Assembly: GCA_946612115.1 (NCBI GenBank)
Contig: CAMOEI010000011.1
Location: 1-32,755 of the forward strand
DNA length: 32,755 bases
Direction: 5' to 3'
From: an uncultured Caryophanales bacterium
GTDB taxonomy: Bacteria; Bacillota_I; Bacilli_A; RFN20; CAG-826
Below, one piece after another: positions 57-30,832 of this stretch. Position 1 is the first letter of the stretch; every line of letters starts with the position of its first letter. A program made the position numbers and the translations under genes. A model generated the notes under the pieces. It was not told the DNA's origin and searched no databases. It saw only the letters and a list, made by a program, of their open reading frames with translations.

Positions 57-86
57 AAAAAACTGGGATAACCCAGTTTTATTTTT
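57..86 (-). terminator. Bidirectional terminator ending the ten-gene operon
   Basis: A 9-bp hairpin (arms 59-67 and 72-80, 4-nt loop) has A-runs on its left and T-runs on its right, so it can end transcription on both strands. On the minus strand it overlaps the stop codon of the last operon gene by two bases. Bases 1-50 hold a smaller inverted repeat (CCAGA/TCTGG at 1-13, followed by GGGTTTT). They may be the tail of a convergent plus-strand gene outside the window, but no reading frame there can be chosen with confidence. Confidence 0.85.
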
Positions 87-3000
87 CGTAAGAGATCAAC
101 GCTGTGATTAAGTCTGCACGAGTGAGTGGTTTATAGAGGTAGTAACCTTGGACCATCATCTCATCATCAAGATCTTTAAGCATCATGAGTTGATTTTCGT
201 TTTCAACACCAACAGCAGCCACTCCCATCTTTGCTTTCTTAGCGTTATTAACCATTTCTCTAAGGGAGTTATATTTAACTTGGTCAGTCTCGATAGCTAA
301 GATAATGTCTCTAGCAACTTTCACTTCTTTAAATCCTAAAAATGAAAGTTCTTCAATATCAATATATTGACCTGTATATCTATCGCAAGAGAATAAAATC
401 TTATATTTCTCGAGTTGAGAAGCAAAGCTTCTAATCTTTTCTTTGTTATTAGGAATAACTTCTTCAGGAATTTCAAGAGAGACGAATCCATTTGGAAGAT
501 GATTCTCTTCACATAAAGAGATAAGCTTAGCAACTAATTCTTCGTTATCTAAATATGTTTGGTCAATGTTAATAGCAATACGGTTAAATTGGTTAATCTT
601 AAAGATGTTGTTTCCGTATTCTTTATACATCATACCGACAAAGTTAATGATAGATTCGGTAATCATGCCGGTCTTATTTTCTTGTTCGGCAATTGTGGAA
701 ATCTCTTGAGCGTTAAAGAAGACGTTTCTATGCGCGTCAGCAATACGTAAAAGAATTTCAGCTCCATAAATATGTTCATCTTTAACTCTGACGATTGGTT
801 GTAAGTTCATCGATGTTGAATTGTGTCCTGAGAATTCTTTCTCCAATGTAGAGATCATGAATTCACGTTTAGATGCACTTCTTTCGATATCGTAATCAGA
901 GAAGTAAATATAATCTTTGTGTTCTCTTCTTTCTCTATAGAATTCACCTAAATGTCTAAATAAGTCTTCTGCATGCGCATAGCCACGAGGATAACCTGTA
1001 GCAAGATAGGTAATGCTAAGAGGATGGAAGTCATTATTGTTATAGTATGACTGTTTACTAAGTGGATAAATATTCTCAATTTTAGTAATGATATCTTTAT
1101 GTCCGTTGGATGGTAAATGGATCGCCAAAGTTGAGGCATTATAGTAATAAATATCGTCAATTCCGAGCTTATTCTTTAAATTTCTCACGTAATCTCTAAC
1201 TAAATAGGAATATCCTTCTCCGCCAATTTTATGGAGAATATCTTCAACGTTTTCAATTTTTAATAAAAGAATATATCCACGCCCGCTAGAGATGAATTCA
1301 TTTTTTATCGCGTTAAAGAACGCTCTATAGGAATAAACTAAGAAGTCCTCTTGATATAAGTCTCCAACAAGTTCATCTTTCTCTAAATGTTTAATAAAGA
1401 CCACTCCATCTTTATCATTTTTATCTGATAAAGTCATAGAAGCCTCAAAGGAGTTATCTTGAATTTCGAAGTACTTTTTCTTCTTTGCAGAATATGGACA
1501 ATCGCGGCATCTTTTATCTAGGCCAAACATTGCCTTGTAACATTTTTCTCCAACTTTAATTTTTGGGAAAATCTTTTTCATGTTATTAGATAAATATGTA
1601 ATGTTGTAATCATTATCGATGTGATAAGCATACATATTGGATAAGGCTAAGATACTTTCATTTTCATTCTGCTTACTATCCGCATAGTCAGCAATCTCAC
1701 GTTTTTCAAAATAGTTTTCAATTCTAAGAGCGACAATATAGAAGGTTTCTCTTAAATATGTATTCAACTTTAAATCTCTATTTCTATTAAAGATATAAAC
1801 AACAGCAATAATTCTATTATTATCTAAATCCTTAATGACGTAATAAATACCACTTTGGATACCATACTGTCCTAAGCATTGTTGAAGTGATAAGTTAGCA
1901 TGAGTACTTGTTGAAAAATAATAAGCATCATCTTCATCAGTGGTTTCACCCAATGTCTTAATAAAGTCTTCTTTAACAATTCCATCAGCAAATAATCCAG
2001 TTTTGCTAGATGCAATATATGAATAATATTGGTTCATTGATTTGTTATAAGCGATGATTCCACCTTCATCAACATCAATGAAATTACAAATCGCATCAAA
2101 GATGTTCTTTAATAATGCATCGTTTTGTTCATTATTAGTGGATGAATAATCTAAGTTAGATAAGGCATTAACAATTTTAGAAGTATAGTTAAGGTTCATT
2201 GATGTATTCATCATCAATTTAGTGCCAACATTGTTTTTAAGTCTTGATGGCAAATATAAGTTATATGGCTTTCCTTGTTGCTTGGCGTATTTTAAATCAC
2301 CTAAAATCATTTCCTCATTTGAATAAGGATAAGCAACAATCGCATATTTTGCTAAGACGTTCCTTAAGCCTCTTTCATCGCGGATCATAATTGATGATTT
2401 AGTAACCACTAAATTGAGTTTCTCTTTGATCTCTGCGAAAGAATCAATGACAGGAATATAAATCAAAATTGATTTATTATTTTCACCGAACATATATAAA
2501 ACATTATCGTGTTCTTTAAATAAATCACGATATAAGCTTAATAATCTATTCTTATCCACATCAGTCAATTCAAAGCCACTAGGCAACTCAAAAAACGCCT
2601 CGATGACAACATTTCTAAATGATTGAGAGACGAAGATAATATTAGAGATATTGTTTTTAAAACTCTTATAAGTGATAAGATTTTTCTCTTTATCAACATA
2701 TTCTAAATTGATATGAGAATAATCAGGATCTTTAAGCATCAAGAAAGAAGATTCTAATTTAGATTTAATATCGTTCGTAGCTTTATCAAGCATCTGAATC
2801 TCACGAATATTACTATCTCCATAACTAACGAGATTCATATCATTATTTCTAATCTTATTAATATTTGTATAAGTAGTTTCAAATAACTGTTTATAGAAAG
2901 TCTTTTTTAATCTTCTAGATAATCTGATATAGAAAACAAAATATGCGACTAAAGTAACAAGAGCGACTGCGTCAAAAATAAAAATAAAGACTAAAGAACG

Positions 3001-3123
3001 CGTATATGCATAAGAAGTGATTAAAGCGATTGTAGACACTAAGAAAACCGCAACAGTGAATGCAGGAATAAGCGTATAGCCTTTATAAGTAGAGAGGAGA
3101 TTTCTTTTCTTTTTATTCTTCAT
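79..3123 (-). CDS. Membrane protein with degenerate GGDEF, GAF, PAS and EAL domains
   Basis: This 1014-residue protein has two N-terminal membrane helices (about 17-40 and 43-67). A GGDEF-like fold without its motif follows (about 150-295), then a GAF-like region (310-475) and a PAS-like segment (490-560) with cysteines C528, C539 and C542. A second GGDEF-like domain has the motif replaced by residues 662-666, and a C-terminal EAL-like domain spans 770-1010. Key EAL residues are lost: the signature reads EIL at 789, the DDFG position reads CDRY at 913-916, KID reads KVA at 935, and the glutamate of EGVE is V971. It is therefore probably not an enzyme but a c-di-GMP or redox-responsive receptor or scaffold (inference). 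The start has GGAG 8 bases upstream and lies 5 bases after the previous stop. It is the last gene of the riboswitch-controlled operon. Confidence 0.85.
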   Translation of the reverse strand: MKNKKKRNLLSTYKGYTLIPAFTVAVFLVSTIALITSYAYTRSLVFIFIFDAVALVTLVAYFVFYIRLSRRLKKTFYKQLFETTYTNINKIRNNDMNLVSYGDSNIREIQMLDKATNDIKSKLESSFLMLKDPDYSHINLEYVDKEKNLITYKSFKNNISNIIFVSQSFRNVVIEAFFELPSGFELTDVDKNRLLSLYRDLFKEHDNVLYMFGENNKSILIYIPVIDSFAEIKEKLNLVVTKSSIMIRDERGLRNVLAKYAIVAYPYSNEEMILGDLKYAKQQGKPYNLYLPSRLKNNVGTKLMMNTSMNLNYTSKIVNALSNLDYSSTNNEQNDALLKNIFDAICNFIDVDEGGIIAYNKSMNQYYSYIASSKTGLFADGIVKEDFIKTLGETTDEDDAYYFSTSTHANLSLQQCLGQYGIQSGIYYVIKDLDNNRIIAVVYIFNRNRDLKLNTYLRETFYIVALRIENYFEKREIADYADSKQNENESILALSNMYAYHIDNDYNITYLSNNMKKIFPKIKVGEKCYKAMFGLDKRCRDCPYSAKKKKYFEIQDNSFEASMTLSDKNDKDGVVFIKHLEKDELVGDLYQEDFLVYSYRAFFNAIKNEFISSGRGYILLLKIENVEDILHKIGGEGYSYLVRDYVRNLKNKLGIDDIYYYNASTLAIHLPSNGHKDIITKIENIYPLSKQSYYNNNDFHPLSITYLATGYPRGYAHAEDLFRHLGEFYRERREHKDYIYFSDYDIERSASKREFMISTLEKEFSGHNSTSMNLQPIVRVKDEHIYGAEILLRIADAHRNVFFNAQEISTIAEQENKTGMITESIINFVGMMYKEYGNNIFKINQFNRIAINIDQTYLDNEELVAKLISLCEENHLPNGFVSLEIPEEVIPNNKEKIRSFASQLEKYKILFSCDRYTGQYIDIEELSFLGFKEVKVARDIILAIETDQVKYNSLREMVNNAKKAKMGVAAVGVENENQLMMLKDLDDEMMVQGYYLYKPLTRADLITALISYEK

Positions 3124-3128
3124 ATCGT

Positions 3129-3857
3129 TTACTCCAAAATATCACTTCTACTGATGTCGTTGATCGTTGAAATAACCGCTTTACCTAAATCGATATATGT
3201 AGATAATACATCTGAATAAGATTCTAAATTATTAACTCTAGAAAGATTATTCTCAACAACCTTACAGGCAACAAAAGGAACTTTCCTTAAAGTTGATGTA
3301 ACAGCGATACCAGCAGTGTTTTGATCAACAACAATCATTTCATTGTCTAAACTAAAAGCGGATTTTCTTTCTTTCAATGTATTTAGCATTTCATTAGAAA
3401 AATTATTTGTAGAAAGGAAAACGCCTTGATAATAGTTGATTTTAATTCTTCGATCTAAACCTTTACAAATATAGCCTAAAATGTCATTTTGAACCGCAAA
3501 TTCCCTATCAAATCCCGGAATTTGTCCAATCGCGACATTTTCAAACATCGTTAAATCAACATTCGCATCAATGACTTTTTTACTAACAACGATATCGCCG
3601 TTTTTAAGTTTACTTGACACGGACATACATCTACCAACAGAGATAACTAAATCAACGAAATAATTGTCAAGAATGTGCATTAAAATCGAACTTGATAAAG
3701 TCGAAGTGTATAAGTCTGAAACAATAATCGCATCTTGAGAGAAAATTGTTCCAATAGAGATTTTATATTTCTCTAAAATTACTTCTTCTCTACGGTTAGC
3801 AAGAACGGAGTCAAAATATAAAATATCGTCGTGAGTTTCACCTACAATAACAATCAT
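3129..3857 (-). CDS. Catalytically degenerate MTA/SAH nucleosidase-fold protein
   Basis: The 242-residue product follows the nucleoside phosphorylase / 5'-methylthioadenosine nucleosidase fold: an N-terminal VIVG strand, a GDIVVS segment, then V-D-L-T and GQIPGF, and a late VPFVACK strand. All three residues essential in the E. coli enzyme look changed by hand alignment. Glu12 is Asp, Glu174 in the EMEA segment is Asn within VDQNTA, and Asp197 of the SD motif is Asn within VENN. It may bind a nucleoside or nucleotide without cleaving it (inference). Its ATG overlaps the TAA of the upstream EAL gene by one base (TAATG), with AGGAG about 10 bases upstream, so the two are translationally coupled. 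The fold call is fairly firm; the loss of activity rests on a hand alignment. Confidence 0.7.
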   Translation of the reverse strand: MIVIVGETHDDILYFDSVLANRREEVILEKYKISIGTIFSQDAIIVSDLYTSTLSSSILMHILDNYFVDLVISVGRCMSVSSKLKNGDIVVSKKVIDANVDLTMFENVAIGQIPGFDREFAVQNDILGYICKGLDRRIKINYYQGVFLSTNNFSNEMLNTLKERKSAFSLDNEMIVVDQNTAGIAVTSTLRKVPFVACKVVENNLSRVNNLESYSDVLSTYIDLGKAVISTINDISRSDILE

Positions 3858-5422
3858 TATTTTTTCGCTCCTTTCTTTTCTTCTTTTTCAAATTGAGCTT
3901 TAACAAGTTCATTATAATCTCCAATTGGAAGAGGTCTAGAATAATAGAACCCTTGAATGGTGTCGATCTTAAGCTTACGTAACAAATCAACTTGTTCTTT
4001 TGTTTCTACACCTTCAATAATCGCTTCCATGTTATTAACATGAGCGAGCTCGATAAGGTAATGAACAATCGATTCAGTTCTTGTATCGGTTAAGATTCTA
4101 TCAGTAAATGATTTATCGATCTTAATCGCATCAAATGGAATTTGTCTAATGTTATCAATTTGAGAATAACCAACACCAAAGTCATCCATTAAAACACGAA
4201 CCCCTAAAGACTTTAATCTTCTAATAACAGATAAAGATAAGAATTTATTAACTTGAGATGTTGTTTCAACAATTTCAATTTCTAGATATTTAGGTGGAAC
4301 ATCATACTTTTTTAAAGTATCCACAATAGTATCTAGGAATGATCTAGAGAAGAATTCATATAATGAGAAGTTAACTGAAACAGGTAAGACATGCCTTCCT
4401 CTTTTTAGAGCCTCTCCTAAATCTTTAACAGCGAGTTCAAAAACTCTAACGTCAATCGCATTAAGTAAACCAGCCTTTTCGGCGTCATCGATAAATTTAT
4501 TTGGACCTAAAACACCGAGTTCTGGATGATTCCATCTCGCTAAAGCTTCACAAGAAACAAATCTTTTTTCCTTAACGGAATATTTAGGTTGATAGAAAGG
4601 AATAATTTCATTATTCTCTAAGGCTTTATAGATTCTAGAACTACTACTTGCAGTAATATCTCTAAAAGACTTTTTAAAGTATGTAAATGATTCATAATTC
4701 TTTTCAGAATAATCTCTAGCAATAAGCGCGTCTTCAATCGCTGAAACGATGGATTCGTCTTTCTCCATTAACTTAATCCCGTAGAAAGGTTGAACCCAGA
4801 TTTTAACTTTATCTTCATTAACCATTCTGAAGCATTCATTAGAGATATCACTCATTAATTTAGACACTAATGAATTATCGTTAGTGAATAAACAGAACAA
4901 GAACATTCCTCTAGAGAAACCATAGACGATATTTCTAGAATCATAAGTTCCATTATTTCTCGCAAATAACTTGTCTAAGAATTTCGCTAATTGAAGATTT
5001 AAATTAGTGAGAATTCTTTCTCTACCTCTATTAGAGGTAATCTCTAACGCGGTCGGAGTAAAAATCATTACATATCGATCTTTTTTAAGATATTGACGTC
5101 TATGAGATAATCTATCAGCTCTCAACTTGAAAGCGTCAAGATTATAGAATTGAGATGGCTCTCCTAATGTATAACTATTTTCAATAATTAATTGATTAAT
5201 GAATCTCTTTTCAGAAGTAATCGCTAATCCTGAAGAAACAAATATCACAGCAAAGCCAACTTCAAAGACTGCAAATAAAACAATAAGGACGACTTGTTTA
5301 TCTTTAAAGACACTAGGTAAAGCCGCTGCAACAACGATGAAAACAATAAAAGCCACCATTAAAGCAAAGCTTAACCATAAAATAATACGATAAAGAGTAA
5401 GAGGCTTAATTTTGAATTTCAT
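3857..5422 (-). CDS. Membrane EAL-domain c-di-GMP phosphodiesterase
   Basis: The protein has 521 residues from the ATG at 5422, preceded by AGGAG 7 bases upstream. A TTG at 5461 would add 13 residues but has no such site. Two membrane helices (about 10-34 and 41-66) are followed by a GGDEF-like region without its motif and a complete EAL domain (about 265-510). All hallmark residues are present: EALAR at 292, N351 in VNFS, the EIVE metal site, DDFGVG at 413, KID at 434, EGVE at 470 and the QGFYYSRP end. It should hydrolyse c-di-GMP to pGpG at the membrane. It overlaps the end of the signal peptidase gene by 17 bases. Because the operon is led by a c-di-GMP riboswitch, this enzyme would lower the signal that switches it on. 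Confidence 0.92.
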   Translation of the reverse strand: MKFKIKPLTLYRIILWLSFALMVAFIVFIVVAAALPSVFKDKQVVLIVLFAVFEVGFAVIFVSSGLAITSEKRFINQLIIENSYTLGEPSQFYNLDAFKLRADRLSHRRQYLKKDRYVMIFTPTALEITSNRGRERILTNLNLQLAKFLDKLFARNNGTYDSRNIVYGFSRGMFLFCLFTNDNSLVSKLMSDISNECFRMVNEDKVKIWVQPFYGIKLMEKDESIVSAIEDALIARDYSEKNYESFTYFKKSFRDITASSSSRIYKALENNEIIPFYQPKYSVKEKRFVSCEALARWNHPELGVLGPNKFIDDAEKAGLLNAIDVRVFELAVKDLGEALKRGRHVLPVSVNFSLYEFFSRSFLDTIVDTLKKYDVPPKYLEIEIVETTSQVNKFLSLSVIRRLKSLGVRVLMDDFGVGYSQIDNIRQIPFDAIKIDKSFTDRILTDTRTESIVHYLIELAHVNNMEAIIEGVETKEQVDLLRKLKIDTIQGFYYSRPLPIGDYNELVKAQFEKEEKKGAKK

Positions 5423-6296
5423 CTTTCTTCTCCTGTTCTTTGGCTTTACGTTTTTCTTCAATCATTTGATCTAAAAGCTCTCTCTTAAGCTTTTCTTTTT
5501 GAGCGTCATTTAAAGACGCTAATCGACCTTCACTAGAGGCAACGCTTTCTGCTTCTTCTGCTGTTTTTAATGTCTTAAAGATATCGATTGTGGATGTGAC
5601 AATTAAATATCCTGCCGGTACTAATAAAACAATGATAAGTCCAATTGGTGAAACAATAAAGTTAAAAACTTTACCTAAGAAAACATTAGTAACTTTAACT
5701 GTTCCTAAATATTGTTTTTCAGTAAATACCTGGTATTGTCCTTCTTTAGATTGTTCACCTTCATTATTAATACCAGAAGCTACAAAGATGTATCTTCCTT
5801 GTCCATACTTTGTAGTTGCGTCATAGTGAATTTCTTTAAGTCTATGGGTCATAACTCGATTAGTAACAACAACTTCTCCAGTTTGATATTCAGGAGTATC
5901 AGGAACAAATCCAGGAATGACCACTCTTTCATTTGCAAAAGTAATATCGATTTTTGCGCCTTTTTCAAAACTCTTTCTTACCGCTTCAAGATCTTCTTTG
6001 TAAGTGATAATTGCACTACTTTTTGGAATCTCAGGTTCCATAGAATCTGTTAATACAATGAAACTACCAATTCCAAATCTAATTGATTGACCATAATTTT
6101 CTTTTTTATGGATTTCTCCACTGATGTTGCCTGCAATAATAAAAGCAAAAATAAGGCCAAAAAGGACAAAGAGAATCCACTCAATAATAATACGAGCTTT
6201 GCTCTTCTTCTTTTTTGCTTTCTTTGTGGTATTATCCACCACATTATTTGTGGTTGGTTCGGTTGCCACGACATTATTCATGATTTCTTCACTCAT
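5406..6296 (-). CDS. sipW: ER-type (SipW-like) signal peptidase I
   Basis: This 296-residue protein has a charged cytoplasmic tail, a membrane helix at about 34-56, a catalytic region, a second helix at about 211-236 and a charged C-terminal tail rich in E, K and Q. The nucleophile is S85 in TDSMEP. The TNRVMTHRL segment gives H151 where bacterial type I peptidases carry lysine, which marks the ER/SipW type with a Ser-His pair. SipW enzymes process TasA-like fibre proteins in Bacillus. Here the same operon encodes several proteins with the matching signal (hydrophobic stretch ending in AWY or AWF). Start and preceding stop overlap as ATGA, so translation is coupled to the DUF2357-like gene. 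Confidence 0.92.
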   Translation of the reverse strand: MSEEIMNNVVATEPTTNNVVDNTTKKAKKKKSKARIIIEWILFVLFGLIFAFIIAGNISGEIHKKENYGQSIRFGIGSFIVLTDSMEPEIPKSSAIITYKEDLEAVRKSFEKGAKIDITFANERVVIPGFVPDTPEYQTGEVVVTNRVMTHRLKEIHYDATTKYGQGRYIFVASGINNEGEQSKEGQYQVFTEKQYLGTVKVTNVFLGKVFNFIVSPIGLIIVLLVPAGYLIVTSTIDIFKTLKTAEEAESVASSEGRLASLNDAQKEKLKRELLDQMIEEKRKAKEQEKKDEIQN

Positions 6297-8515
6297 AATT
6301 TAACAACCTTTCCACCCATCTTATTTTTGATTTCATTGGCTTTATTAAAGTCATCAAAAATATGAGCATCATTTTTATAGATAGATGTTTTCTTACTATT
6401 GATGTAATAACCTTCGTTAGTCTTAACGATGAATTTACCTGGGATAGGCGCTAATTCTTCTTTTGCTGGTTTAGCCTTTTTCTTAGGAGCTGGTGTTTTC
6501 TTTGGCTCTGGTTTCTTTTTAGGGGCAGGTTTTTTCTTAGCAGCCTTTTTAACTGGTTTTGGCTCTTCAGATTTTGCCTCTTCAACTGGTTTTACAGGCT
6601 TAGGTTCTTCCTTAGGCTTTTCCTCTTTCTTTGAAGTAGCCTTCTTTTTCGCTGGAGCTTTCTTTTTGGCTTTAGTCTTCTTTTTAACAGGTTCAACTGG
6701 TTTTTCTTCAGCGATTGGAGCTTCTTCTTTTGGTTCTTCCTTAACAGGTTCTTCCACTATTGGAGATTCAGTAACTGGTTCAGGAACATTTTCTTCTATA
6801 ACAGGTTCGCTAACTGGCTCTGATTTAATTTCTTCAATAGGAGCAGTTGGCTCTTCTGGTTTAGTTTCTTTCTTCTTAGTAACTTTCTTTTTCGCTGGAG
6901 ATTTTTTACGAGGCTTTCTTTGTTTTGGAGCAGGTTTTTCCTCTTCAATTGGTTCCTCTTCTTTAACAGGCTGCTCGCTAATCTCCTCTACTTTTTCCTC
7001 GCTAAAAATAGGTTCTTCTATTTGAACTTCTTCGGCCTTTTCTTCTTGTTCTATTGGAGATTCAGTAACTGGTTCTTCTTTAACTGGCTCAGATTGAATT
7101 TCTTCATTTTGAGCAGGATTTGCAGGAATTTCCTTAGATTTTGCGGCTTTTTTAGGTTTTTTATATTTTTTGTTATCGGTGTAGTCGCCTTTTGCTGCGG
7201 CGATAATTTCTGCACGCTTTTGATTGAGGATATCTTCTTGTTGTTGGCGAAGTTCAGCAATCTTAGCTTTGTAAGCTTCAGCCTCTTCATAATTGCGTTG
7301 TTCGATTAATTTAGCGACTTTCTTTTCGTATTTTTCAATCGCCTTTCTAATGCGGTTAAGTAAAGCTTCGATGCTCTTGATTTCATCACTGATATCTTTT
7401 TTCAATTTATATTCATCTTGGTAATAAACTTTTTCACTTCTATTAGGTTTAGCAGGTAAATCTTTTGGAGATAATTTATTTAAGTAATTGATATAAGATT
7501 CATCCGCACGGACAAAATCAACTGGTCCTTTAACTAAATCATCATAAATAAAAGATTCATCATCGATAGAATGAAGCAATTTTGGTTTATAAACTTTATT
7601 AACTTGCTTATAGACCTTATCGTTTTCAGTGTTTTCTAAGAATAAGAGATTAGAGAGTAAGATATGACCTAAGTCTTTTCTTTCTTTTTCATTGAATTCT
7701 TGGAAGTTACGATCAACTTTGAAGGCAACTCCTAAAGAATCAAACTTTTCAATGAAAAGGAAAGTTTCATAACACTTATGGTAAAGTGGATTCTTCTTAA
7801 TGATGTTAGTTAATAAAATTGGTCTTCTAACATCTTTTTCGGTCTTAAATTCCTTCATGAATGGGGAATTATAATAATAACCAATATATTCTTTTAACTT
7901 ATCAATACGGGCGATATATTCTCTAGCGGCGATACTTAAATCATCCTCTAAGGCACGCTTAACAGTAATCTTGGTTTCAATTTCAACTTCTTGACCATCG
8001 ACGATTGATTTATTTTTGACATACATGATTTCTTTTTCATCTAAAGAAACGGTCTTTTTAATAAATTCATATCGCTTGTCTATGAATAAAATTAAGCGAC
8101 GGATAAAAGTCGCTATAAATCTATTTTCGTAGGTGTGAAGTTCCTCTTTATTATATAAACCAAGAATTTTAGCAGGAACGACATCACCGTTATCTTTAAT
8201 CTCTTTAATAAACTGCGAATGGCTCGCTAAATGTTGAACGGATTCATAGTTAATCTTTTTGGCGAGCTCAATAGGCATAACTGAACCTTCTGTTGTCGTC
8301 ACTTCTCGAGGATTATTAGTGATTTGATCAAGCTCATACATACAATCTTCAATTCTTCTAATCCATTCTGGATTAAAGATGGAAGATCCTTTAAACTTCA
8401 TTCTCAAATAAGAAGTTTGTCCATGATAAATATCTTCATTCATAAGGAAATAACGTTGGTCTTTAATAGAACCAACCTTATCTAGATACTTCAAGAAGAG
8501 TTCTTTATCATTCAT
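6293..8515 (-). CDS. DUF2357-like protein with long K/P/E-rich tail, partner of AAA+ ATPase
   Basis: The 740-residue product has a globular N-terminal half (about 1-360) resembling DUF2357 proteins: an HTYENRF segment at 127-133 and a later segment about positioning at LLTN and NPLYHKCYE. A coiled-coil stretch follows (about 375-435). Roughly 240 residues rich in Lys, Pro, Glu and Ala come next, with AKKKAPAKKK-type and EEPVKEEP-type repeats. The last 50 residues form a small folded-looking module ending in GGKVVKL. DUF2357 proteins normally sit beside McrB-type AAA+ ATPases and often carry a nuclease domain; none is visible here, its place being taken by the tail. The start is 7 bases after the ATPase stop and has no clear Shine-Dalgarno site, suggesting coupling. 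It is probably cytoplasmic; the tail may bind nucleic acid or cell wall (speculative). Confidence 0.65.
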   Translation of the reverse strand: MNDKELFLKYLDKVGSIKDQRYFLMNEDIYHGQTSYLRMKFKGSSIFNPEWIRRIEDCMYELDQITNNPREVTTTEGSVMPIELAKKINYESVQHLASHSQFIKEIKDNGDVVPAKILGLYNKEELHTYENRFIATFIRRLILFIDKRYEFIKKTVSLDEKEIMYVKNKSIVDGQEVEIETKITVKRALEDDLSIAAREYIARIDKLKEYIGYYYNSPFMKEFKTEKDVRRPILLTNIIKKNPLYHKCYETFLFIEKFDSLGVAFKVDRNFQEFNEKERKDLGHILLSNLLFLENTENDKVYKQVNKVYKPKLLHSIDDESFIYDDLVKGPVDFVRADESYINYLNKLSPKDLPAKPNRSEKVYYQDEYKLKKDISDEIKSIEALLNRIRKAIEKYEKKVAKLIEQRNYEEAEAYKAKIAELRQQQEDILNQKRAEIIAAAKGDYTDNKKYKKPKKAAKSKEIPANPAQNEEIQSEPVKEEPVTESPIEQEEKAEEVQIEEPIFSEEKVEEISEQPVKEEEPIEEEKPAPKQRKPRKKSPAKKKVTKKKETKPEEPTAPIEEIKSEPVSEPVIEENVPEPVTESPIVEEPVKEEPKEEAPIAEEKPVEPVKKKTKAKKKAPAKKKATSKKEEKPKEEPKPVKPVEEAKSEEPKPVKKAAKKKPAPKKKPEPKKTPAPKKKAKPAKEELAPIPGKFIVKTNEGYYINSKKTSIYKNDAHIFDDFNKANEIKNKMGGKVVKL

Positions 8516-8522
8516 AAATTAA

Positions 8523-10037
8523 TTAGTTATTTTTAATAAGGCTTTCAATATATGATTGGGCTCTTGGGAATTTTCCTTTGCCGTATAACTTATCTAAATA
8601 GTTAGAGAGTTCTTGCAATTCTTCTTTTAAGAAGGCGATATTTAAAGATTCGAATTTCTTTAAGATTTTGTTAGTAAAGATAAAGTCAAATGCGTCGACT
8701 TCAGTTCCACCACAAGCAACATAGCAAGGAACAAATGTTTCAAGTTGCTTTAAAATACGGTTACCAAAGGCGAGTTTGAATTTCTTAATAACAAAGTTAT
8801 CAAGTTCATCAAACTTATCAAGCATAGCTTGAGAAATGCCATATTGTTTCTTTGCTTCCGTAAATAAGGCTTCTAATTGAGCGTAAGGAATAGATAATGG
8901 TTCTTGTTCTTCCGCGTTAAATGGTCTTCCTTTATCATCAAAGAATAAAGAAATCGCACGGTCATAAACCTTATCGGAAATTGTGAATGTCGAATCATCG
9001 TTATTCGCTGTACCAATAAAGAGAACGTTTTGAGGAATTCTTAATTTACCTTCTTCTAAATGAATTGGATCATCCTTTTCTTGAGAAGGAATTAAATCAA
9101 TCACCCAGTTTTCTTTATCTTTCATTTCCATGACAGATAAGAATTCTGCGAAATAATATTCGATTCTCGCTAAGTTCATTTCATCGAGAACAATAACGTT
9201 TAAGTCTTTACGATAAGTTGCGATATATAAGGATTTTAAGAATTCTGTTTCATTAAATTTCTTAGTGAATTCGTTATAGTAACCTAATAATTCGGAACGG
9301 TCTTTCCAAGATGGTTGTACTGGAATGATTGAAGAATCAAAACAGAAGAACTTACCTAAAGCGTACGCTAAGGAAGTTTTACCTGTACCAGAAATACCTT
9401 CTAAAATGATTAATTTAGAAGTCGCCATACCAGCGAAGAGTTGTCTAACAACATCAATCGTATAATAGAAACCTAATTTACTCGCCGCGTAGTTTCTAAA
9501 AGAATTACACAATTCTTCTAAGGATAAACCTTCTTTAAACATAATTGAGGTATTACGTTCTTTATAGTTATTATCAACAGAGGTGAGTTTTGGGAATCTA
9601 GAAGTAACTTCTTTAATTTCTTCCGCTAAAGCTTGATCTTCAGCAGGTTTTAAGCCCATATATGCTGTTTTAAGGTTTAAAATCTTATCTTTTTCTTGTG
9701 TGGCAGTATATAGCTCATAATTAAGTCTTTCGACTTGTCTCCTTAATTCATCCTTATCGAGTTCTTTTTTCACAAAGCGAATATATTTTCTTAAAACGAT
9801 AAATAAACCGAATAAGATCGCTCCGATAACTCCGATAAAGAATAATAAGAATAAAACATAAAAGAACCAGCCCCAGAAACCAAATTCTCCTTTAAAAGAA
9901 TTAAAAATGGAATTGTAATTATTAAAATTGTTTCCAACATCTGACCATGGAGAAATAAATACCTTAAATAGGAATGTTCCTAGGTCAGTGAAAAATGCCA
10001 CAAGCATTTCCCTTAAATATTCAAAATATGCACTCAT
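8523..10037 (-). CDS. Membrane-anchored McrB-family AAA+ ATPase
   Basis: In this 504-residue protein an N-terminal amphipathic stretch and a strong membrane segment (about 53-83) lead into a coiled coil (90-125) and a McrB-type AAA+ domain. Walker A is GISGTGKT at 214-221 and Walker B is VIVLDEMNLAR at 281-291. The sensor segment is IGTANNDD at 341-348, and SDKVYDR ends at R360, a likely arginine finger. DEMNLAR followed by EYYF is characteristic of the McrB/DUF2357-associated branch. A transmembrane anchor is unusual for McrB. It lies 2 bases after the stop of a surface-protein gene and directly ahead of the DUF2357-like gene, so it probably drives assembly or export at the membrane rather than DNA restriction (inference). 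Confidence 0.88.
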   Translation of the reverse strand: MSAYFEYLREMLVAFFTDLGTFLFKVFISPWSDVGNNFNNYNSIFNSFKGEFGFWGWFFYVLFLLFFIGVIGAILFGLFIVLRKYIRFVKKELDKDELRRQVERLNYELYTATQEKDKILNLKTAYMGLKPAEDQALAEEIKEVTSRFPKLTSVDNNYKERNTSIMFKEGLSLEELCNSFRNYAASKLGFYYTIDVVRQLFAGMATSKLIILEGISGTGKTSLAYALGKFFCFDSSIIPVQPSWKDRSELLGYYNEFTKKFNETEFLKSLYIATYRKDLNVIVLDEMNLARIEYYFAEFLSVMEMKDKENWVIDLIPSQEKDDPIHLEEGKLRIPQNVLFIGTANNDDSTFTISDKVYDRAISLFFDDKGRPFNAEEQEPLSIPYAQLEALFTEAKKQYGISQAMLDKFDELDNFVIKKFKLAFGNRILKQLETFVPCYVACGGTEVDAFDFIFTNKILKKFESLNIAFLKEELQELSNYLDKLYGKGKFPRAQSYIESLIKNN

Positions 10038-10039
10038 AA

Positions 10040-11107
10040 TTACGCTTCCCTTTCAATCTTAAACGCTAGGTTTGATATAAAATTAGCACCCATCGTATAG
10101 TTGATACTATCGAGGTCCCATCCCTCAATATAAATAGATAAAACAATCTCCTGGGGTTTATCTCTATATACTGGGAAGATGAATGGCTTATCTAATTGAT
10201 TAAAATCTTCAGTTGTTAAAGACTCTTCAGTTTTATAAACCACGCTACTAGCTTCTCTACTATATCTTTTAACTCCGGCTTTATGTCTGGCGTTAAATGC
10301 GCTTGGGTCTTCATCTTCATCGACAAATGATGAATCTTCTGGAAGAGCGTCCTCATAGACAACTTCTCCTTCATAATCTCCATAGACCCTTTCATAAAGC
10401 AAGTTATCAGATGTTTTCTTAAAATAATCGAAATATTGATCGACATCGTTATCTAGAAGTCCTCCAAAGGAGGTCACTCCTTCTTTATTTGGGTCAATGA
10501 TACAGAAATTATAATCTTCTGTGTCTGTGACCAAAATTGAATAACGCATCGCGTTCACTAATCGATTCAAACGATTTTCAATATCTTCTTTAGTAAGTTG
10601 TTTTAATGATTCATCCACTCCACTTTGATATGTCTCATAAAGCTTTTCAGCGTAGATTTTATTGTAATCTGGATTTGGATGAATATATGTCGCTTCAGGA
10701 TTGATAGAAACATAAACATCATCATCCGCTTTTAAGTAGAGCTTTTGAGAGAGGAATCCTCTTTCTGCTTCAATAGTAATTGGAGTATCTTCAAGTGGAG
10801 AAAAATTAGTGTCATCGTAAAAAATTACGTTGTCCGATTTTTGTTCTAACCAATCTCCTCTATGCGCGCTAGTCACAGGAATAAACACGCCCACCTCATC
10901 TAAATCATCTTTACTTAAATGGGCTTTATACCCGCTATCAGGGTTAGTAGAGATTGCTAATTGACGATTACAGTCAATAGTGATTAAAACGCTTTCGATA
11001 CGAAGTCTCGTAGAGGCTGCATACCAAGCTAAGGACATCGATAATGTAGCGACGCTTAAAGCAATCGCTGAAACGTAAAACGATAATATTAATTTCCTTT
11101 TGTTCAT
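10040..11107 (-). CDS. SipW-signal surface protein, paralogue 4 of the operon
   Basis: The 355-residue protein has an N-terminal hydrophobic signal ending in SLAWYAAS (about 26-33), the pattern recognised by SipW-type peptidase. The mature part is acidic. It contains a FGGLLDNDVDQYFDY segment, aligned in position with the DLDGDG segments of the two preceding genes but without their complete calcium-loop-like pattern. It ends with IYIEGWD (about 325-331), a motif shared by all the small SipW proteins here. It is probably secreted as a fibre or matrix subunit (inference). Its ATG overlaps the previous TAA by one base (TAATG). Confidence 0.8.
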   Translation of the reverse strand: MNKRKLILSFYVSAIALSVATLSMSLAWYAASTRLRIESVLITIDCNRQLAISTNPDSGYKAHLSKDDLDEVGVFIPVTSAHRGDWLEQKSDNVIFYDDTNFSPLEDTPITIEAERGFLSQKLYLKADDDVYVSINPEATYIHPNPDYNKIYAEKLYETYQSGVDESLKQLTKEDIENRLNRLVNAMRYSILVTDTEDYNFCIIDPNKEGVTSFGGLLDNDVDQYFDYFKKTSDNLLYERVYGDYEGEVVYEDALPEDSSFVDEDEDPSAFNARHKAGVKRYSREASSVVYKTEESLTTEDFNQLDKPFIFPVYRDKPQEIVLSIYIEGWDLDSINYTMGANFISNLAFKIEREA

Positions 11108-12225
11108 TAAGATCTATTTACTTCGAATCTAAGTCCTAAATTGAAGGAATATCCAGCAGCTTTATCAACAACTGCATGATCCCAACCTTCAATAAAGATT
11201 GTAAATGTGGCATATCCAACTCCATCATCACTATCAGTGGTGGCAATTGGCATACCTGTGGCACCAGAATAGTACGTTCCATTAGCGTCCACTAATGGCT
11301 TAACAGTACCAAATGTTTGATACTCAACGACTTTCGGTGTCAATTGTTCAAGGTCAACACAATAAGTATGTTCATAATGCTTCGCGTAGAATGTTGATTC
11401 GACAAGTTCTTCTACTCCGTTGACGTTATCGTATTCGGCGTGTTCTTTGTCGATTCCATATTCGCTTGTGTCATTAACGAGTGTACCGTCATATTGACCG
11501 TAATAATATTCATTTAAATATGTTTGGTTATAGTCGTAGGTTCCATCTCCATCGAGATCTAATAAACCTCCAACTTTTGTTGATCCGGTGTTTGTAGTTC
11601 TATCAGCAGGTTTCATTAAGAACTTACGTTGGCTATTTTCTATAAATAAACGGACTGCTTGATGGATGTTTTCGCCAGATGCTTGCACTGAGGTATCAGT
11701 GAGCCAAATATCAATGTCTTCGATGCTGCTTCCATCGATATCCGACATACGGAATGCGAGTGGAAGTCTCACATAGTGAGAAGTTAAAGCAGTTTTAGTT
11801 AGTGAAGTCTCTCCGTAGTTTGGTGATTCATATAGTTGTAATGCACCAGTCTCGGAAATACCACGAGCTTGAGTAGATAGAGGGAAGAGCATATCAATCG
11901 CGTAAACGGAACGTCTTAAATATTCTCTAATCGCACGATAATCTAAACCGTCAGTCTTATGAGTAAAGACAATCGAGTGATTATCATATTCTTCTCTAGT
12001 AAGTTCATATAACGCTAAATGTTCATCATCGATGTAATGGGAATCATCAACGATTCCAACATTGAGTAATGCAGATTTAGCAATACTGGTTCCAATAAAG
12101 GATAAAGTGACACTTCTAGAGTAGGCATACCACGCTAAAGAACCAGCAGTTGCACCCACAACCGAAATTGCGGTCAATGCTGTTCCTAACAATAATCCAA
12201 AAGTAATTTTACTTTGCTTTTTCAC
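11107..12225 (-). CDS. SipW-signal surface protein with DLDGDG motif, paralogue 3
   Basis: This 372-residue protein starts at a GTG with GGGAAGG 7 bases upstream. The signal ends in SLAWYAYS (about 29-36). It is followed by SFIGTSIA, closely matching SFIGTSVA in the next gene upstream, so the two are tandem paralogues. A GGLLDLDGDGTYDY segment around residue 225 resembles a calcium-binding loop. The C-terminus carries IFIEGWD. It is likely an exported beta-rich subunit processed by the operon's own signal peptidase. A 32-base gap separates it from the previous gene, the largest inside the operon. Confidence 0.82.
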   Translation of the reverse strand: MKKQSKITFGLLLGTALTAISVVGATAGSLAWYAYSRSVTLSFIGTSIAKSALLNVGIVDDSHYIDDEHLALYELTREEYDNHSIVFTHKTDGLDYRAIREYLRRSVYAIDMLFPLSTQARGISETGALQLYESPNYGETSLTKTALTSHYVRLPLAFRMSDIDGSSIEDIDIWLTDTSVQASGENIHQAVRLFIENSQRKFLMKPADRTTNTGSTKVGGLLDLDGDGTYDYNQTYLNEYYYGQYDGTLVNDTSEYGIDKEHAEYDNVNGVEELVESTFYAKHYEHTYCVDLEQLTPKVVEYQTFGTVKPLVDANGTYYSGATGMPIATTDSDDGVGYATFTIFIEGWDHAVVDKAAGYSFNLGLRFEVNRS

Positions 12226-12257
12226 GGTTTGCCCTTCCCTATCTAATTCAATTTATT

Positions 12258-13325
12258 TTATAAACTACCTAAATTTCTTCCGGCATCAAAAGTCATACCA
12301 ACACGGACTGGAATATTTGATCCACTTAAAATTGGATTCCAGATTGTGCCTTTTTTGCTGGCATCAGTCGCGTTGTTATTTAATAATTGCCAACCTTCAA
12401 GCCAAACGGTAACAGTAATTTTAACTGTCCATGCATCTGTGCCATCTTTGGTAAAGCAGATGGTTTTTGCATTTCTTTGTTCTGGTGTACTTGCTGGCAT
12501 ATCACCTTGGGCATCTCTATGTTGAACAATGCCATCATCATCGGCTGTTGCACCAATTGTGGTTTGATATTCACCATTAATGCCATAGATGACTGTTTGA
12601 CCCTTATTTGGATCCCAATCATATCCACCAAATTTATCAGATTCACCATCTCCATCGAGATCTAATTCGCCAAATAATGGTAACTTATTTGCTTCAGCAA
12701 TCTTTGCTTTGGAAATAAGTCTATTTGGATTTGTTGCACCTTCAACATCGAGGTGAATTCTAACGGCGTCAGAAATGGTTTTTCCACCAGCAGCGTATTG
12801 TGCTGTTTCTCCAACACCTTCGATATGAACGTCTGATAAATAAACAGGTTTAGCAACTTGTTTGTATCCTGGAGCGACGTCATGAGAGGCGTCACCTTCA
12901 GCGGATGCGTCCGCTTCAAGAGCTCTTAAATAGATATCATATTGATAGTAACCTGTGCTCATTACTTCCCAACCAGATGTGTAGTCATTACCACCTTGTC
13001 TACCTGCTTCTGGACGGCCATAAGCCTTATCGCCTAAGCAGTTAGCTTTGTTATCTGATGTTCTAGTTTTTAAAGCACCAAATGTGACTGGCACTATTTT
13101 TGCATTTTCTTTAACGAGGTCTCTACCCCAAACAACTTTGTGAGCATCATCGTCATAATAACCGATTTGGAGTAATCCACCTTCGGCGACGGATGTTCCG
13201 ATAAAGGAAGTAGTGACTTGGCTACTGAATTGATACCACGCAAAAGCTCCGCCTAATCCTCCTGCCACGGATAAACCGATGACTGAGGAAAGAAATGGAA
13301 CGATAACTTTTTTATTCATTTTCAT
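12258..13325 (-). CDS. SipW-signal surface protein with DLDGDG motif, paralogue 2
   Basis: The 355-residue protein has a signal ending in AFAWYQFS (about 27-34), followed by SFIGTSVAEGGLLQIG, similar to the next gene downstream. A GELDLDGDGESD segment sits at the same relative place as in that paralogue, and the C-terminal motif reads VWLEGWQ. The first ATG (13325) lies within the last codons of the preceding gene (14-base overlap). A second in-frame ATG at 13319 is equally possible; AGGAG lies 15 bases before the first. It is predicted to be a secreted matrix or fibre subunit; the fold assignment comes from shared motifs only. Confidence 0.82.
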   Translation of the reverse strand: MKMNKKVIVPFLSSVIGLSVAGGLGGAFAWYQFSSQVTTSFIGTSVAEGGLLQIGYYDDDAHKVVWGRDLVKENAKIVPVTFGALKTRTSDNKANCLGDKAYGRPEAGRQGGNDYTSGWEVMSTGYYQYDIYLRALEADASAEGDASHDVAPGYKQVAKPVYLSDVHIEGVGETAQYAAGGKTISDAVRIHLDVEGATNPNRLISKAKIAEANKLPLFGELDLDGDGESDKFGGYDWDPNKGQTVIYGINGEYQTTIGATADDDGIVQHRDAQGDMPASTPEQRNAKTICFTKDGTDAWTVKITVTVWLEGWQLLNNNATDASKKGTIWNPILSGSNIPVRVGMTFDAGRNLGSL

Positions 13326-14112
13326 ATGCGTTTATTTCAACTCCTAATTTAATTGTTGCACCCCTAGGGGCGAATTCTTCATCACTTGATCTGAAACCTT
13401 CAAGCCAAGTAACGATTGTGTACCTTCTCGCTTCTCCTATGTTTAATTGTTGACCACGAAATGCCGTGACAACACTTGAAGAACTAAATGTCTCCGCATA
13501 TCCCATAAATGGGAATTCGTCTGTTGCTCTATCTTCATCAACTGAAATAGGTGCACGATAATCATCGCCGCCTTCAGTATGAGGTTCTGATAAAGCTTTT
13601 CCGTAGACAGTTTTTTCACCATCTACATAAACCATGACTCTAACCGTGTCTAATAATGATCTTCCATCACTAGATTTAACGTTTTCGATTACGTTAAGAG
13701 ACCAATCATATTTAGCAGGAACTTTTCCAACATTCTTCACATAATATGTGTATTTGAAGAAATTAAGAGAAGTAAGCTTTTGATCTTCGGAATAATTTCC
13801 TCCGATGGTTGAACTTGTGTCCTCATTATCGAGAACTTCATCTCCTCCGTCTCTTTCAAAGAAACTATATGTGTATTCTTGGAAAGGCGCTAAAGTGTTG
13901 ACTCTTAAAAACGAAGAATATTGCGAAGAATCTTTCTTCTCCAATAGCGCTAGACTGACATTTCGAGTTTCTAGACTTACTGTAAATGTCCCAACGAATC
14001 GGCCTAAGAAAGCGACTATAGCAAAAGTCGTAACAACCATTGCTGAAATACCTCCAGCAATCGCTACGAGTCTTCTTCTTTTCCGTTTTTTCACATACTC
14101 TAGTTTGTACAT
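13312..14112 (-). CDS. TasA/TapA-like surface protein, first gene of the riboswitch operon
   Basis: This 266-residue protein has a very basic start (KKRKRRR), a hydrophobic segment at about 15-37, then a beta-rich region with YTYYVKNVGKVPAKYDW, a phrase typical of TasA-like SipW substrates. The C-terminal motif TWLEGF matches the EGWD motif of its neighbours. The AWY/AWF box of the others is missing (LGRFVGTF instead), so the segment may stay uncleaved and serve as an anchor, as suggested for TapA (inference). An in-frame stop lies 9 bases upstream, fixing the ATG. The AAGGT ribosome site is part of a small hairpin at 14121-14135. The riboswitch lies immediately upstream. Confidence 0.8.
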   Translation of the reverse strand: MYKLEYVKKRKRRRLVAIAGGISAMVVTTFAIVAFLGRFVGTFTVSLETRNVSLALLEKKDSSQYSSFLRVNTLAPFQEYTYSFFERDGGDEVLDNEDTSSTIGGNYSEDQKLTSLNFFKYTYYVKNVGKVPAKYDWSLNVIENVKSSDGRSLLDTVRVMVYVDGEKTVYGKALSEPHTEGGDDYRAPISVDEDRATDEFPFMGYAETFSSSSVVTAFRGQQLNIGEARRYTIVTWLEGFRSSDEEFAPRGATIKLGVEINAYENE

Positions 14113-14120
14113 AGTTTTTT

Positions 14121-14135
14121 ACCTTGCGAAAAGGT
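14121..14135 (-). promoter_or_regulatory. Hairpin covering the ribosome-binding site of the first operon gene
   Basis: The minus strand reads ACCTT, a 5-nt loop, then AAGGT, 9 bases before ATG at 14112. The right arm is the only Shine-Dalgarno-like sequence there. The hairpin could moderate translation, but with 5 bp the effect may be small. Confidence 0.4.
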
Positions 14136-14154
14136 GTGTGTCCCAATGAAGATA

Positions 14155-14216
14155 CAAAAAACGCCATTTGCCTATCATCCTCACAACGTGTTTGTTGTAC
14201 TTCTAAGGCAACTGGC
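14155..14216 (-). terminator. Riboswitch-coupled intrinsic terminator
   Basis: On the minus strand the 5' arm GCCAGTTGCCT (14206-14216) pairs with AGGCAAATGGC (14163-14173), leaving one mismatch. The run GTTTTTT follows at once (14156-14163). An inner hairpin ACAAC/GTTGT lies in the loop. The 5' arm contains TTGC, the 3' strand of aptamer helix P1, so aptamer and terminator cannot both form. Ligand binding should therefore favour read-through. Confidence 0.8.
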
Positions 14217-14275
14217 TATCTAATATAATTAGACCCTATAGCTTTGCGTCACCAAATTACTTCGGTTTTGCTTTT
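14203..14275 (-). promoter_or_regulatory. Cyclic di-GMP-I (GEMM) riboswitch 1, predicted ON switch
   Basis: The minus strand shows the GEMM-I order. GCAAAACC (14264-14271) is followed by a hairpin closed by a GTAA tetraloop (ACCGAA/TTTGGT). The conserved GACGCAAAGC comes next, then a second hairpin (TCTAAT/ATTAGA) and the closing AGCCAGTTGCC. GCAA at 14268-14271 pairs with TTGC at 14208-14211 as helix P1. The element sits just after a promoter and before ten co-directional genes for surface proteins, their peptidase and c-di-GMP proteins. Family assignment is by recognition of conserved blocks, not by a covariance search. Confidence 0.88.
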
Positions 14276-14287
14276 TTCTCACCTACT

Positions 14288-14315
14288 ATATTACACGATT
14301 TTTTTCATCGGTCAA
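14288..14315 (-). promoter_or_regulatory. Sigma-A-type promoter of the ten-gene operon
   Basis: The -35 box TTGACC (14310-14315) and -10 box TAATAT (14288-14293) are 16 bases apart on the minus strand. Transcription would start near 14280, directly ahead of the riboswitch. The promoter lies just past the terminator of the previous gene, so the operon is independently transcribed. Confidence 0.7.
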
Positions 14316-14395: not shown

Positions 14396-15340
14396 TTATG
14401 CAGCTGGTTGTAGTTCGATAGCTTCGAATGTTAATTGAGATGCAACAGATTGATAATTAGCATCTAATGCTTGATTAACAATGTTTTCATCAGTTCCTTC
14501 GAACCACGCAACAACTCTAATTGTGATTGAAACTTCAGCTTGGCTTGCAAATTTGAATGTTCCAAGGTAATCAGCTCTTGCAAGAGCATCTGCTCTTGAT
14601 GTTGAAGTTGTTGGTAAAGGGTCACTGTAGGCGCTATCAATTAACGCAGATCCTGTATATGCTGTACCAGCATAGTTATCTTTACCGGCAACGTATTTGC
14701 ATTTTCCAGATTCTTGTAAATCCGCGAAAACTTTTTGCGCACCTGCTGATCCAGTTGGAACCGAAATTGGGTAGAATCCCATTCTGAATCCTTTAGCTGT
14801 AATTGGTGTAGCTGCATCAGTAGAAAATTTAGAATTATCACCTGTGCAGTTTAAGAACAATCCGATATCTGCTTCAACAGCACCAAAGTTAACTGTGAAT
14901 GTGATATCAAATGTTGCAGCTGTATAAACTTTAACGTTAGATGATCCAACTTTAACGGTTGCTCTTTCAAGAGAAGTAGCTACAGCAGATACTTCATCTG
15001 CCTTGGTGGCATCATAAGAAACGACATCAACTTCACCACGTGCGGTTTGGTCAATTGCCTTTCCGTCTGCAGTAGGTTGATAAACTTTACCACTTGTGTG
15101 GTTATATGAACCATCGGTAAGTCTTCCACCAAAGGTGACAGTTTTACCATCAACGCTTGTTCCAACGCCTGCAGCTAATTTAACATCTAAGTTTGATGTG
15201 GTCTTAACAACCGCGTATGTGCCAGCACTGATAACGGCTTGTCTACTAGCAGTAAACCAAGCAACAGATCCAGCAATAGAAGCAGCTGTTGAGAATGCAA
15301 TCATCGCTACGGCAGGAACAATAACTTTTGATTTTTTCAT
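14396..15340 (-). CDS. Stand-alone SipW-signal surface protein, candidate major fibre subunit
   Basis: This 314-residue protein starts at ATG 15340, which has AAGGAG 7 bases upstream; an upstream in-frame ATG at 15370 lacks such a site. The signal ends in SVAWFTAS (about 25-32), matching the SipW pattern. The mature part is rich in Ala, Thr, Ser, Gly and Val with little charge, as expected of a repetitive extracellular subunit. The C-terminal motif AWFEGTDEN corresponds to the EGWD motif of the operon paralogues. It has its own promoter, a long structured leader and a strong terminator, so it is a one-gene transcript that can be expressed at a different level from the riboswitch operons. A role as the main structural subunit is inference. 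Confidence 0.82.
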   Translation of the reverse strand: MKKSKVIVPAVAMIAFSTAASIAGSVAWFTASRQAVISAGTYAVVKTTSNLDVKLAAGVGTSVDGKTVTFGGRLTDGSYNHTSGKVYQPTADGKAIDQTARGEVDVVSYDATKADEVSAVATSLERATVKVGSSNVKVYTAATFDITFTVNFGAVEADIGLFLNCTGDNSKFSTDAATPITAKGFRMGFYPISVPTGSAGAQKVFADLQESGKCKYVAGKDNYAGTAYTGSALIDSAYSDPLPTTSTSRADALARADYLGTFKFASQAEVSITIRVVAWFEGTDENIVNQALDANYQSVASQLTFEAIELQPAA

Positions 15341-15361
15341 ATTTATCTCCTTATAAACGAC

Positions 15362-15397
15362 AAAAATCATTCAACTGTTATTTTTTTAAATTGAATG
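15362..15397 (-). promoter_or_regulatory. Possible attenuator hairpin in the leader
   Basis: The minus strand forms CATTCAATT paired with AGTTGAATG (9 bp including a G-T pair, 12-nt loop), followed by ATTTTTG, 20-30 bases before the start codon. It looks like a weak terminator between the structured leader and the gene. Confidence 0.4.
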
Positions 15398-15546: not shown

Positions 15547-16434
15547 CTAAATTGAAGATCCTTTATAACAATCTTTTCCGTTCTGCTTCGCGTCGTAGAG
15601 ATTTTTATCGGCGATCTTTATTAGTTTTGTGTAGTCATGATTTTCATTAATTGTCCCATCTACGAATCCAGCGGAGAATCTCACTAAATTGTCTTTGTCT
15701 GAGCCTAGAAGTTGTTTGAAATCTTCTAGTCTTTCCATAAAATCATCGACCGATAATTCTGACAGAACTAAGAATTCATCTCCACCATAACGGTATGTGT
15801 GTTCATGAGAGAACATTGCTGCTAATTCGTTAGCGAAATGACTTAATGTTAAATCTCCGTTTTGATGTCCTAATGTATCATTGATCTCTTTGAAGTTATC
15901 AATATCCAAAATCATTATGATTATTCTTTTGTTTTGATATTGTTTAATATCATTCCTAAATGCATAACGGTTTTTAACCGCAGTTAAAGCGTCTAAATAG
16001 ACGATATTGCTCAATTTACGATTATTTTCTAATAAAACTTCTTTTTCGGTCTTATTTGTCCTTCTATATAAAACTACTATTAACGCGCATATGAACGCAC
16101 CTATAACTATTACTATTAATTTATTAAGATTTATTTCAGTGTACTCAAAAAATGAATGATTCTTTGAAAAGAAGAACATCGAATAGATGACCATATCTAA
16201 AAAGGCCACTATCGCACCTTGAATACTAAATACAGCGGAACAAACAACTAATCCAGTAATCAAAATCATATTTGGATTAGGAATTGAGGAGTAATAAACA
16301 AGCGCGGTTAACCCTGCCATAATAATCGCAGAAACAACAACCCTAAAAATTCCTCTTAAAAGAGGATTCCTTAGAAAGGAAATATTATCGATTACAGAAA
16401 AAATCTTATTCAGAAATAATCTAAACTTTCTCAT
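15547..16434 (-). CDS. Membrane diguanylate cyclase (GGDEF)
   Basis: The protein has 295 residues from ATG 16434, which is preceded by AGGTG at the correct distance. The GTG at 16443 is rejected because it is part of that ribosome site. About four membrane helices occupy residues 28-124, followed by a full GGDEF domain: DALTAVKNR at 148, DIDNFKEIND at 177, and intact RYGGDEF with GGDEF at 217-221. It should make c-di-GMP from two GTP. The RxxD inhibitory site expected five residues before GGDEF is absent (FSHE instead), so product inhibition is probably weak. It starts one base after the stop of the GGDEF-EAL gene, so a synthase and a hydrolase are co-translated. Confidence 0.93.
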   Translation of the reverse strand: MRKFRLFLNKIFSVIDNISFLRNPLLRGIFRVVVSAIIMAGLTALVYYSSIPNPNMILITGLVVCSAVFSIQGAIVAFLDMVIYSMFFFSKNHSFFEYTEINLNKLIVIVIGAFICALIVVLYRRTNKTEKEVLLENNRKLSNIVYLDALTAVKNRYAFRNDIKQYQNKRIIIMILDIDNFKEINDTLGHQNGDLTLSHFANELAAMFSHEHTYRYGGDEFLVLSELSVDDFMERLEDFKQLLGSDKDNLVRFSAGFVDGTINENHDYTKLIKIADKNLYDAKQNGKDCYKGSSI

Positions 16435-16435
16435 A

Positions 16436-27687: not shown

Positions 27688-27696
27688 ACTAGTTAA

Positions 27697-30813: not shown

Positions 30814-30832
30814 AGAGCTTGCAGGCTCTTTT
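30814..30832. terminator. Bidirectional terminator between convergent genes
   Basis: AGAGCT (30814-30819), loop TGCA, GGCTCT (30824-30829), then TTTT on the plus strand and ATTTTC on the minus strand. It lies between the transporter gene and the convergent HD-GYP gene, and nearly touches the latter's stop codon. Confidence 0.7.

Follow-up and report, generated by a model that had tools for sequence, protein, structure and literature searches.

The window analysed here is the whole 32,755-nucleotide stretch of contig CAMOEI010000011.1 (assembly GCA_946612115.1) from an uncultured Caryophanales bacterium. Its minus strand carries a ten-gene operon, running from 14112 to 79, in which a leader with a cyclic di-GMP (c-di-GMP) riboswitch aptamer precedes genes for exported proteins, a McrB-type AAA+ protein, a DUF2357 protein, a SipW-type signal peptidase, and proteins with EAL and MTA/SAH-nucleosidase (MTAN) folds. 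The arrangement suggests that a motor of the defence type has been recruited for building bacterial surface fibres. The features, in order of transcription, are:

14288..14315, minus strand: promoter-like site TTGACC-16-TAATAT, directly before the aptamer
14204..14282, minus strand: c-di-GMP-I riboswitch aptamer (Rfam RF01051)
14155..14216, minus strand: intrinsic terminator, GCCAGTTGCC...GGCAAATGGC plus T-run, free energy -19.1; its 5′ arm coincides with the final 13 nt of the aptamer
13312..14112, minus strand: g1, membrane-anchored exported beta-sandwich protein, putative core subunit
12258..13325, minus strand: g2, exported protein with AWY-type signal
11107..12225, minus strand: g3, exported protein with AWY-type signal
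10040..11107, minus strand: g4, exported protein with AWY-type signal
8523..10037, minus strand: McrB-type AAA+ protein with membrane N-terminus and NxDD motif
6293..8515, minus strand: DUF2357 protein, a McrC-like stalk domain without nuclease, with a long K/E/P-rich tail
5406..6296, minus strand: SipW-type signal peptidase (NF046067), single copy in the genome
3857..5461, minus strand: EAL phosphodiesterase with two N-terminal membrane segments
3129..3857, minus strand: MTAN-fold protein, catalytic residues lost (domain match and alignment)
79..3123, minus strand: degenerate EAL protein
59..80, minus strand: operon-end terminator, 9-pair stem and T-rich tail

The original prediction, made from the DNA letters, described a run of ten genes with small gaps and overlapping stops and starts. 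This description stands: the widest gap is 32 bases, between g2 and g3, and several neighbouring genes overlap at stop and start. The terminator-like hairpin at 80-59 ends the operon, and a second one at 14361-14337 closes the preceding gene and separates it from the operon. The predicted gene contents (an EAL enzyme, degenerate proteins, AAA+, DUF2357 and SipW) agree with the domain scores and motifs. Pfam scores are 216 bits for the first EAL protein, 111 for the second and 57 for the MTAN fold; DUF2357 reaches 27.2 bits (gathering 23.3) and AAA_5 reaches 22.4 (gathering 22). The label "ATPase" guessed at the nucleotide, as the closest relatives with solved structures are those of McrB, a GTPase.

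Fusion and conservation of the motor-peptidase module

The SipW-like peptidase holds its catalytic motifs, with serine in TDSMEP and histidine in MTHR, and scores 36.6 bits against NF046067, below the cut-off of 190 that this model sets for Bacillus SipW itself. In six genomes (L108, L120, L123, L132, L145 and L150, from Ruminococcus albus and relatives), DUF2357 and a SipW-type peptidase are fused. The fusion is one open frame of 973-1029 residues, with TGSMEP and THRI in the peptidase part and membrane segments on both sides, and its peptidase matches the family of the window SipW (hhalign 99.5%, E 1.2e-22). No other single observation argues as strongly that the McrC-like protein, and hence its AAA partner, works at the peptidase. 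A DUF2357 domain fused to a signal peptidase places the motor most likely beside that peptidase.

The gene order g1-(g2-g4)-AAA-DUF2357-SipW-EAL-MTAN-EAL is repeated in members of the genus and family. Of the 19 genomes from the genus, eight encode the full-length AAA protein, and a strong SipW occurs in exactly those eight, a joint presence with a p of 1.3e-5, uncorrected for relatedness. The other 11 lack both, except for one 22.7-bit SipW-like match and AAA genes of other sub-types. A wider search through species genomes gave at least 588 relatives, and the best 80 of these include rumen metagenome-assembled genomes named Erysipelotrichaceae, Oscillospiraceae, two Ruminococcus albus strains, and Acholeplasmataceae. 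Forty-nine of the best 80 loci are well covered, with at least 4 kb on either side. DUF2357 was found in 46 of them, EAL in 39, motif-positive SipW in 31, and g1 in all 49, the last count being partly circular because those very loci had supplied the g1 profile. Profiles built solely from members of the window's order detected g1 in 65 of the 80 loci, many of which are cut short.

The module extends across the class. AAA relatives at E 1e-30 or better occur in 105 of 296 evenly drawn class genomes, some of them being of restriction-type or other sub-types. Twenty class loci were hand-picked from these relatives to span ten families, with L158 apparently on the same contig as L100; DUF2357 is present in 20, SipW in 19, the g4 type in 18 and g1 in 17. 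Elsewhere in the order, the module adjoins an ABC transporter, and genes of 440 and 340 residues there are relatives of DUF2357 and SipW (hhalign 98.8% and 97.3%). One proposed check was whether the AAA/DUF2357 pair is missing from the SipW operons of relatives. Instead, the pair is kept with SipW in genus, family, class and Clostridia, and is also fused. A chance neighbourhood is ruled out by this conservation together with the fusion. The AAA/DUF2357/SipW/surface-protein system, often c-di-GMP-controlled, is thus well supported as a widespread genetic unit.

Variant loci were also seen. In other families (L056, L058-L064, L159) the neighbours of an AAA/DUF2357/SipW-like module are an ABC transporter and a lipoprotein; several exported proteins are encoded as well, and no riboswitch was noticed. 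In a further sub-type (L054, L055, L057, L160) one DUF2357 gene lies between two AAA genes, next to very large proteins, with no recognised SipW.

The McrB-type protein and its DUF2357 partner

The AAA+ protein begins with hydrophobic segments at residues 11-29 and 64-82 (by hydropathy), then a charged helical stretch. It carries Walker A, Walker B and the motif GTANNDDST, and its profile matches E. coli McrB in the PDB (E 2.5e-5). The N-x-D-D of this motif, in the form GT(A/I)NxDDST, is invariant in all 101 AAA+ relatives. It fits the NxD branch of McrB-like proteins defined by Bell et al. (PMC11090510), although NNDD, with its two aspartates, can also be read as NxxD. A tree of AAA domains was left unused for placing E. 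coli McrB and others, as their branches were very long.

The DUF2357 domain was found in 51 of 52 members. Profile comparison with E. coli McrC and a PDB profile search both gave no link, and only fold comparison connected the two. The domain, folded with its relatives, gave a model with a predicted local distance difference test (pLDDT) score of 87.6. Four McrC structures are its top VIA matches (Z 7.8-8.7), with the next family at 6.0, and all McrC matches are confined to the N-terminal stalk domain. The VIA lists re-examine Foldseek's own matches, which leaves room for folds outside them, and the Foldseek list for DUF2357 is weak by itself (McrC at rank 1, E 0.056). In McrBC restriction systems the McrC partner carries a PD-(D/E)xK nuclease; domain searches detected no nuclease family in the window DUF2357 protein, nor in the ten relatives searched at full length. 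It is through a stalk domain of the DUF2357 type that McrC stimulates the McrB GTPase (PMC11090510), so an activator role for the DUF2357 protein would follow naturally.

Exported proteins

The four exported proteins were predicted to be related to one another. This is clear for g2-g4 (hhalign 98.8-99.8%), but g1 is a separate family, aligning to them at only 35-78% over about 40 columns and having no AWY motif. The g1 family matched nothing in sequence searches of Pfam and the PDB, TasA included, so fold comparison was used. The AlphaFold2 model of g1, folded with relatives, has a long N-terminal helix and a beta-sandwich (pLDDT 92.1, predicted template-modelling score 0.83). Its top VIA match is the B. 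subtilis TasA fibre 8aur (Z 7.1, 135 residues, root-mean-square deviation 3.5), with unrelated sandwiches close behind, then an archaeal filament and pilins. The model is suggestive of a TasA-like fold, and the match gains weight because SipW is the TasA peptidase. Such a fold in the model supports a fibre or matrix role.

Another exported protein, with an AWF signal, is encoded at 14396-15370 of the window, just upstream and behind its own terminator in most genus loci. It is perhaps an extra SipW substrate.

The c-di-GMP-I leader

A c-di-GMP-I aptamer was expected ahead of the operon, and the covariance-model score of 64.3 bits, against a gathering threshold of 35 bits for RF01051, confirms it. 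The promoter proposed with it is well placed before the aptamer, but it matches the consensus at only 9 of 12 positions and such sites are no commoner than by chance (45 found, 58.8 expected in shuffled sequence).

The six genus loci that were folded all show the same overlap of 13 nt between aptamer and terminator, and their stems range from -22.9 to -27.1 kcal/mol. Among 35 distinct leaders from fetched loci, 25 are arranged in this way; in the other 10, some hairpins start deeper inside the aptamer and four leaders have no hairpin. Since the terminator 5′ arm is the aptamer 3′ strand, ligand binding should block termination, and from this architecture we infer an ON switch. Rfam confirms c-di-GMP-I aptamers in six genus loci, in three of eight further Bacillota loci and in nine of nine class loci, the latter preselected by pattern match.

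Some such operons are preceded by tandem c-di-GMP-I aptamers, each with its own terminator (L100:3665-3894, L153, L154, L158). This could give a steeper response.

EAL and MTAN-fold proteins

The first EAL protein has all eight checked catalytic residues, and 15 of 15 aligned sequences keep them. In the second, one active-site aspartate and one glutamate are missing from all eight orthologs. The MTAN-fold protein has asparagine at the positions of the glutamate and aspartate that we take to be catalytic in this family. It also gave a match to Spiroplasma Fib (24.7 bits, cut-off 200), which we judged to be superfamily similarity.

Discussion

The window most likely belongs to CoCoPALM, a group named in one paragraph by Bell et al. 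(eLife 2024), in which McrB-like GTPases carry an FtsB-like membrane domain and are associated with a signal peptidase; a separate paper was announced (PMC11090510). CoCoPALM proteins have an NxD GTPase motif, after which E or D usually comes next, and those authors suspected a role in pilus assembly (PMC11090510). The window shares the NxD-type McrB-like domain, the membrane N-terminus, the DUF2357 partner and the neighbouring signal peptidase, but the main text of that paper says nothing of c-di-GMP, TasA, SipW, EAL enzymes or a DUF2357-peptidase fusion (PMC11090510). Our literature search found no follow-up CoCoPALM paper, nor one joining SipW with McrB. The original prediction of a possibly undescribed system holds only in part, as the pairing of McrB-like GTPase and signal peptidase had been named. 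New here are the ON-type leader that puts the operon under c-di-GMP control, the TasA-like fold of a core subunit, the fusion to the peptidase and measured co-occurrence.

Known SipW operons were said to lack an AAA+/DUF2357 module, and this is true of two of them. The B. subtilis tapA-sipW-tasA operon shares with the window a SipW-type peptidase and exported proteins, one of TasA-like predicted fold here, but it has three genes, SinR control and no AAA+/DUF2357, and g1 has no sequence match to TasA (PMC9674648). Likewise, C. perfringens sipW-bsaABCRSD is a SipW operon, one whose surface protein polymerises, but it is under two-component control and has no AAA+/DUF2357 (PMC7395162). E. coli McrBC has the same type of AAA+ domain and a McrC stalk that the DUF2357 fold resembles. 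In the window, no nuclease was found, a membrane N-terminus replaces the DNA-recognition domain, and NNDD stands in place of NTAD.

We consider it reasonably probable that the operon encodes a c-di-GMP-induced surface-fibre or matrix system that has recruited a membrane McrBC-type motor to its signal peptidase. At high c-di-GMP, the aptamer would retain its 3′ strand, blocking the terminator and allowing transcription of the operon. The g1 protein and the AWY-signal proteins g2-g4 would be exported, and SipW would cleave the AWY-signal ones. The AAA+ protein, held in the membrane by its N-terminus, may form hexamers as McrB does, and the DUF2357 protein, given its fold, may dock into it and stimulate it as McrC does McrB. 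The motor would then engage subunit precursors, or the peptidase itself, and drive the extraction, gated cleavage or incorporation of subunits. The intact EAL enzyme would lower c-di-GMP as negative feedback, and the degenerate EAL and MTAN-fold proteins may be receptors or scaffolds. Fibre assembly, nucleotide hydrolysis and the exact role of the motor are what we infer. More tentatively, and with somewhat less than an even chance in our view, nuclease-free McrBC may be a dedicated nucleotide-driven motor for assembling TasA-like fibres in monoderms, linked physically to the signal peptidase and under c-di-GMP gating; this would be a class of fibre assembly apart from sortase pili, type IV pili and motor-less TasA.

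Several points weigh against a fibre-building motor. TasA and BsaA polymers assemble without one (PMC9674648, PMC7395162). The Z of 7.1 between g1 and TasA falls in the range of common sandwich folds. Neither SipW nor the riboswitch is obligatory: class locus L160 has AAA/DUF2357 without SipW, and Rfam detects no c-di-GMP riboswitch at two R. albus loci. PADLOC labels the AAA+ gene a defence candidate (PDC-M26A, E 4e-42 over the AAA region). Fibres, co-transcription, hydrolysis and the physical complex are read here from gene content and predicted folds.

AAA+ proteins commonly clear jammed or misprocessed proteins, and the motor could be a quality-control unfoldase for SipW substrates that clears such precursors from the membrane and builds nothing. 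The close link to the peptidase, including the fusion, and the loci with ABC transporters in other members would fit this role. We nevertheless think it unlikely, as no protease domain or partner is conserved beside the motor, and the SipW operons of B. subtilis and C. perfringens function without it (PMC9674648, PMC7395162).

It is less likely still that the McrB/DUF2357 pair is an anti-phage module, a membrane-linked relative of McrBC and CoCoNuT that lies within a surface-protein operon. McrBC ancestry and the PADLOC label speak for defence. However, no nuclease was found in the window protein or its ten full-length relatives, the operon is under riboswitch control, and the SipW partner is both conserved and fused, with a presence and absence that the pair matches in the genus. 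A motor that keeps McrB's DNA-translocating activity and serves DNA uptake, driving DNA along a surface filament or through it, is highly improbable: McrB translocates DNA (PMC7680126), and the suspicion of pilus assembly (PMC11090510) would suit a filament, but membrane segments replace the DNA-recognition N-terminus, no nuclease was found, and none of the operon genes was recognised as one for DNA uptake.

If the motor does serve fibre assembly at the peptidase, a restriction-enzyme-type motor has become a component of a c-di-GMP-switched machine for protein export and fibre assembly. The system is common, as the class sample indicates, and would offer a testable account of c-di-GMP-dependent surface structures in gut and rumen Bacilli and Clostridia. 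The fusion in cultured Ruminococcus albus makes motor-peptidase coupling directly testable. Defence-finding tools will call the AAA+ gene anti-phage, and such calls should be read with caution.

Other c-di-GMP genes in the window and genome

A second c-di-GMP-I aptamer (27619-27693, minus strand, 50.7 bits) lies 12 bases before the gene for an exported protein with a YSWF signal (26671-27606). It is followed by genes for a 988-residue SWF-signal protein and a 1320-residue exported protein. These genes, spanning 27606-19724, probably form another surface operon under c-di-GMP control, whose products the single SipW would serve. Two intact GGDEF proteins, one with degenerate GGDEF plus EAL, and two HD-GYP-like proteins are encoded at 15547-18634, 18822-19712, 27885-29384 and 30831-32531, a density of c-di-GMP-type genes unusual for a 1.2-Mb genome. 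The third c-di-GMP-I aptamer of the genome (G000:C3:24030-24111, L070) lies away from the operon.

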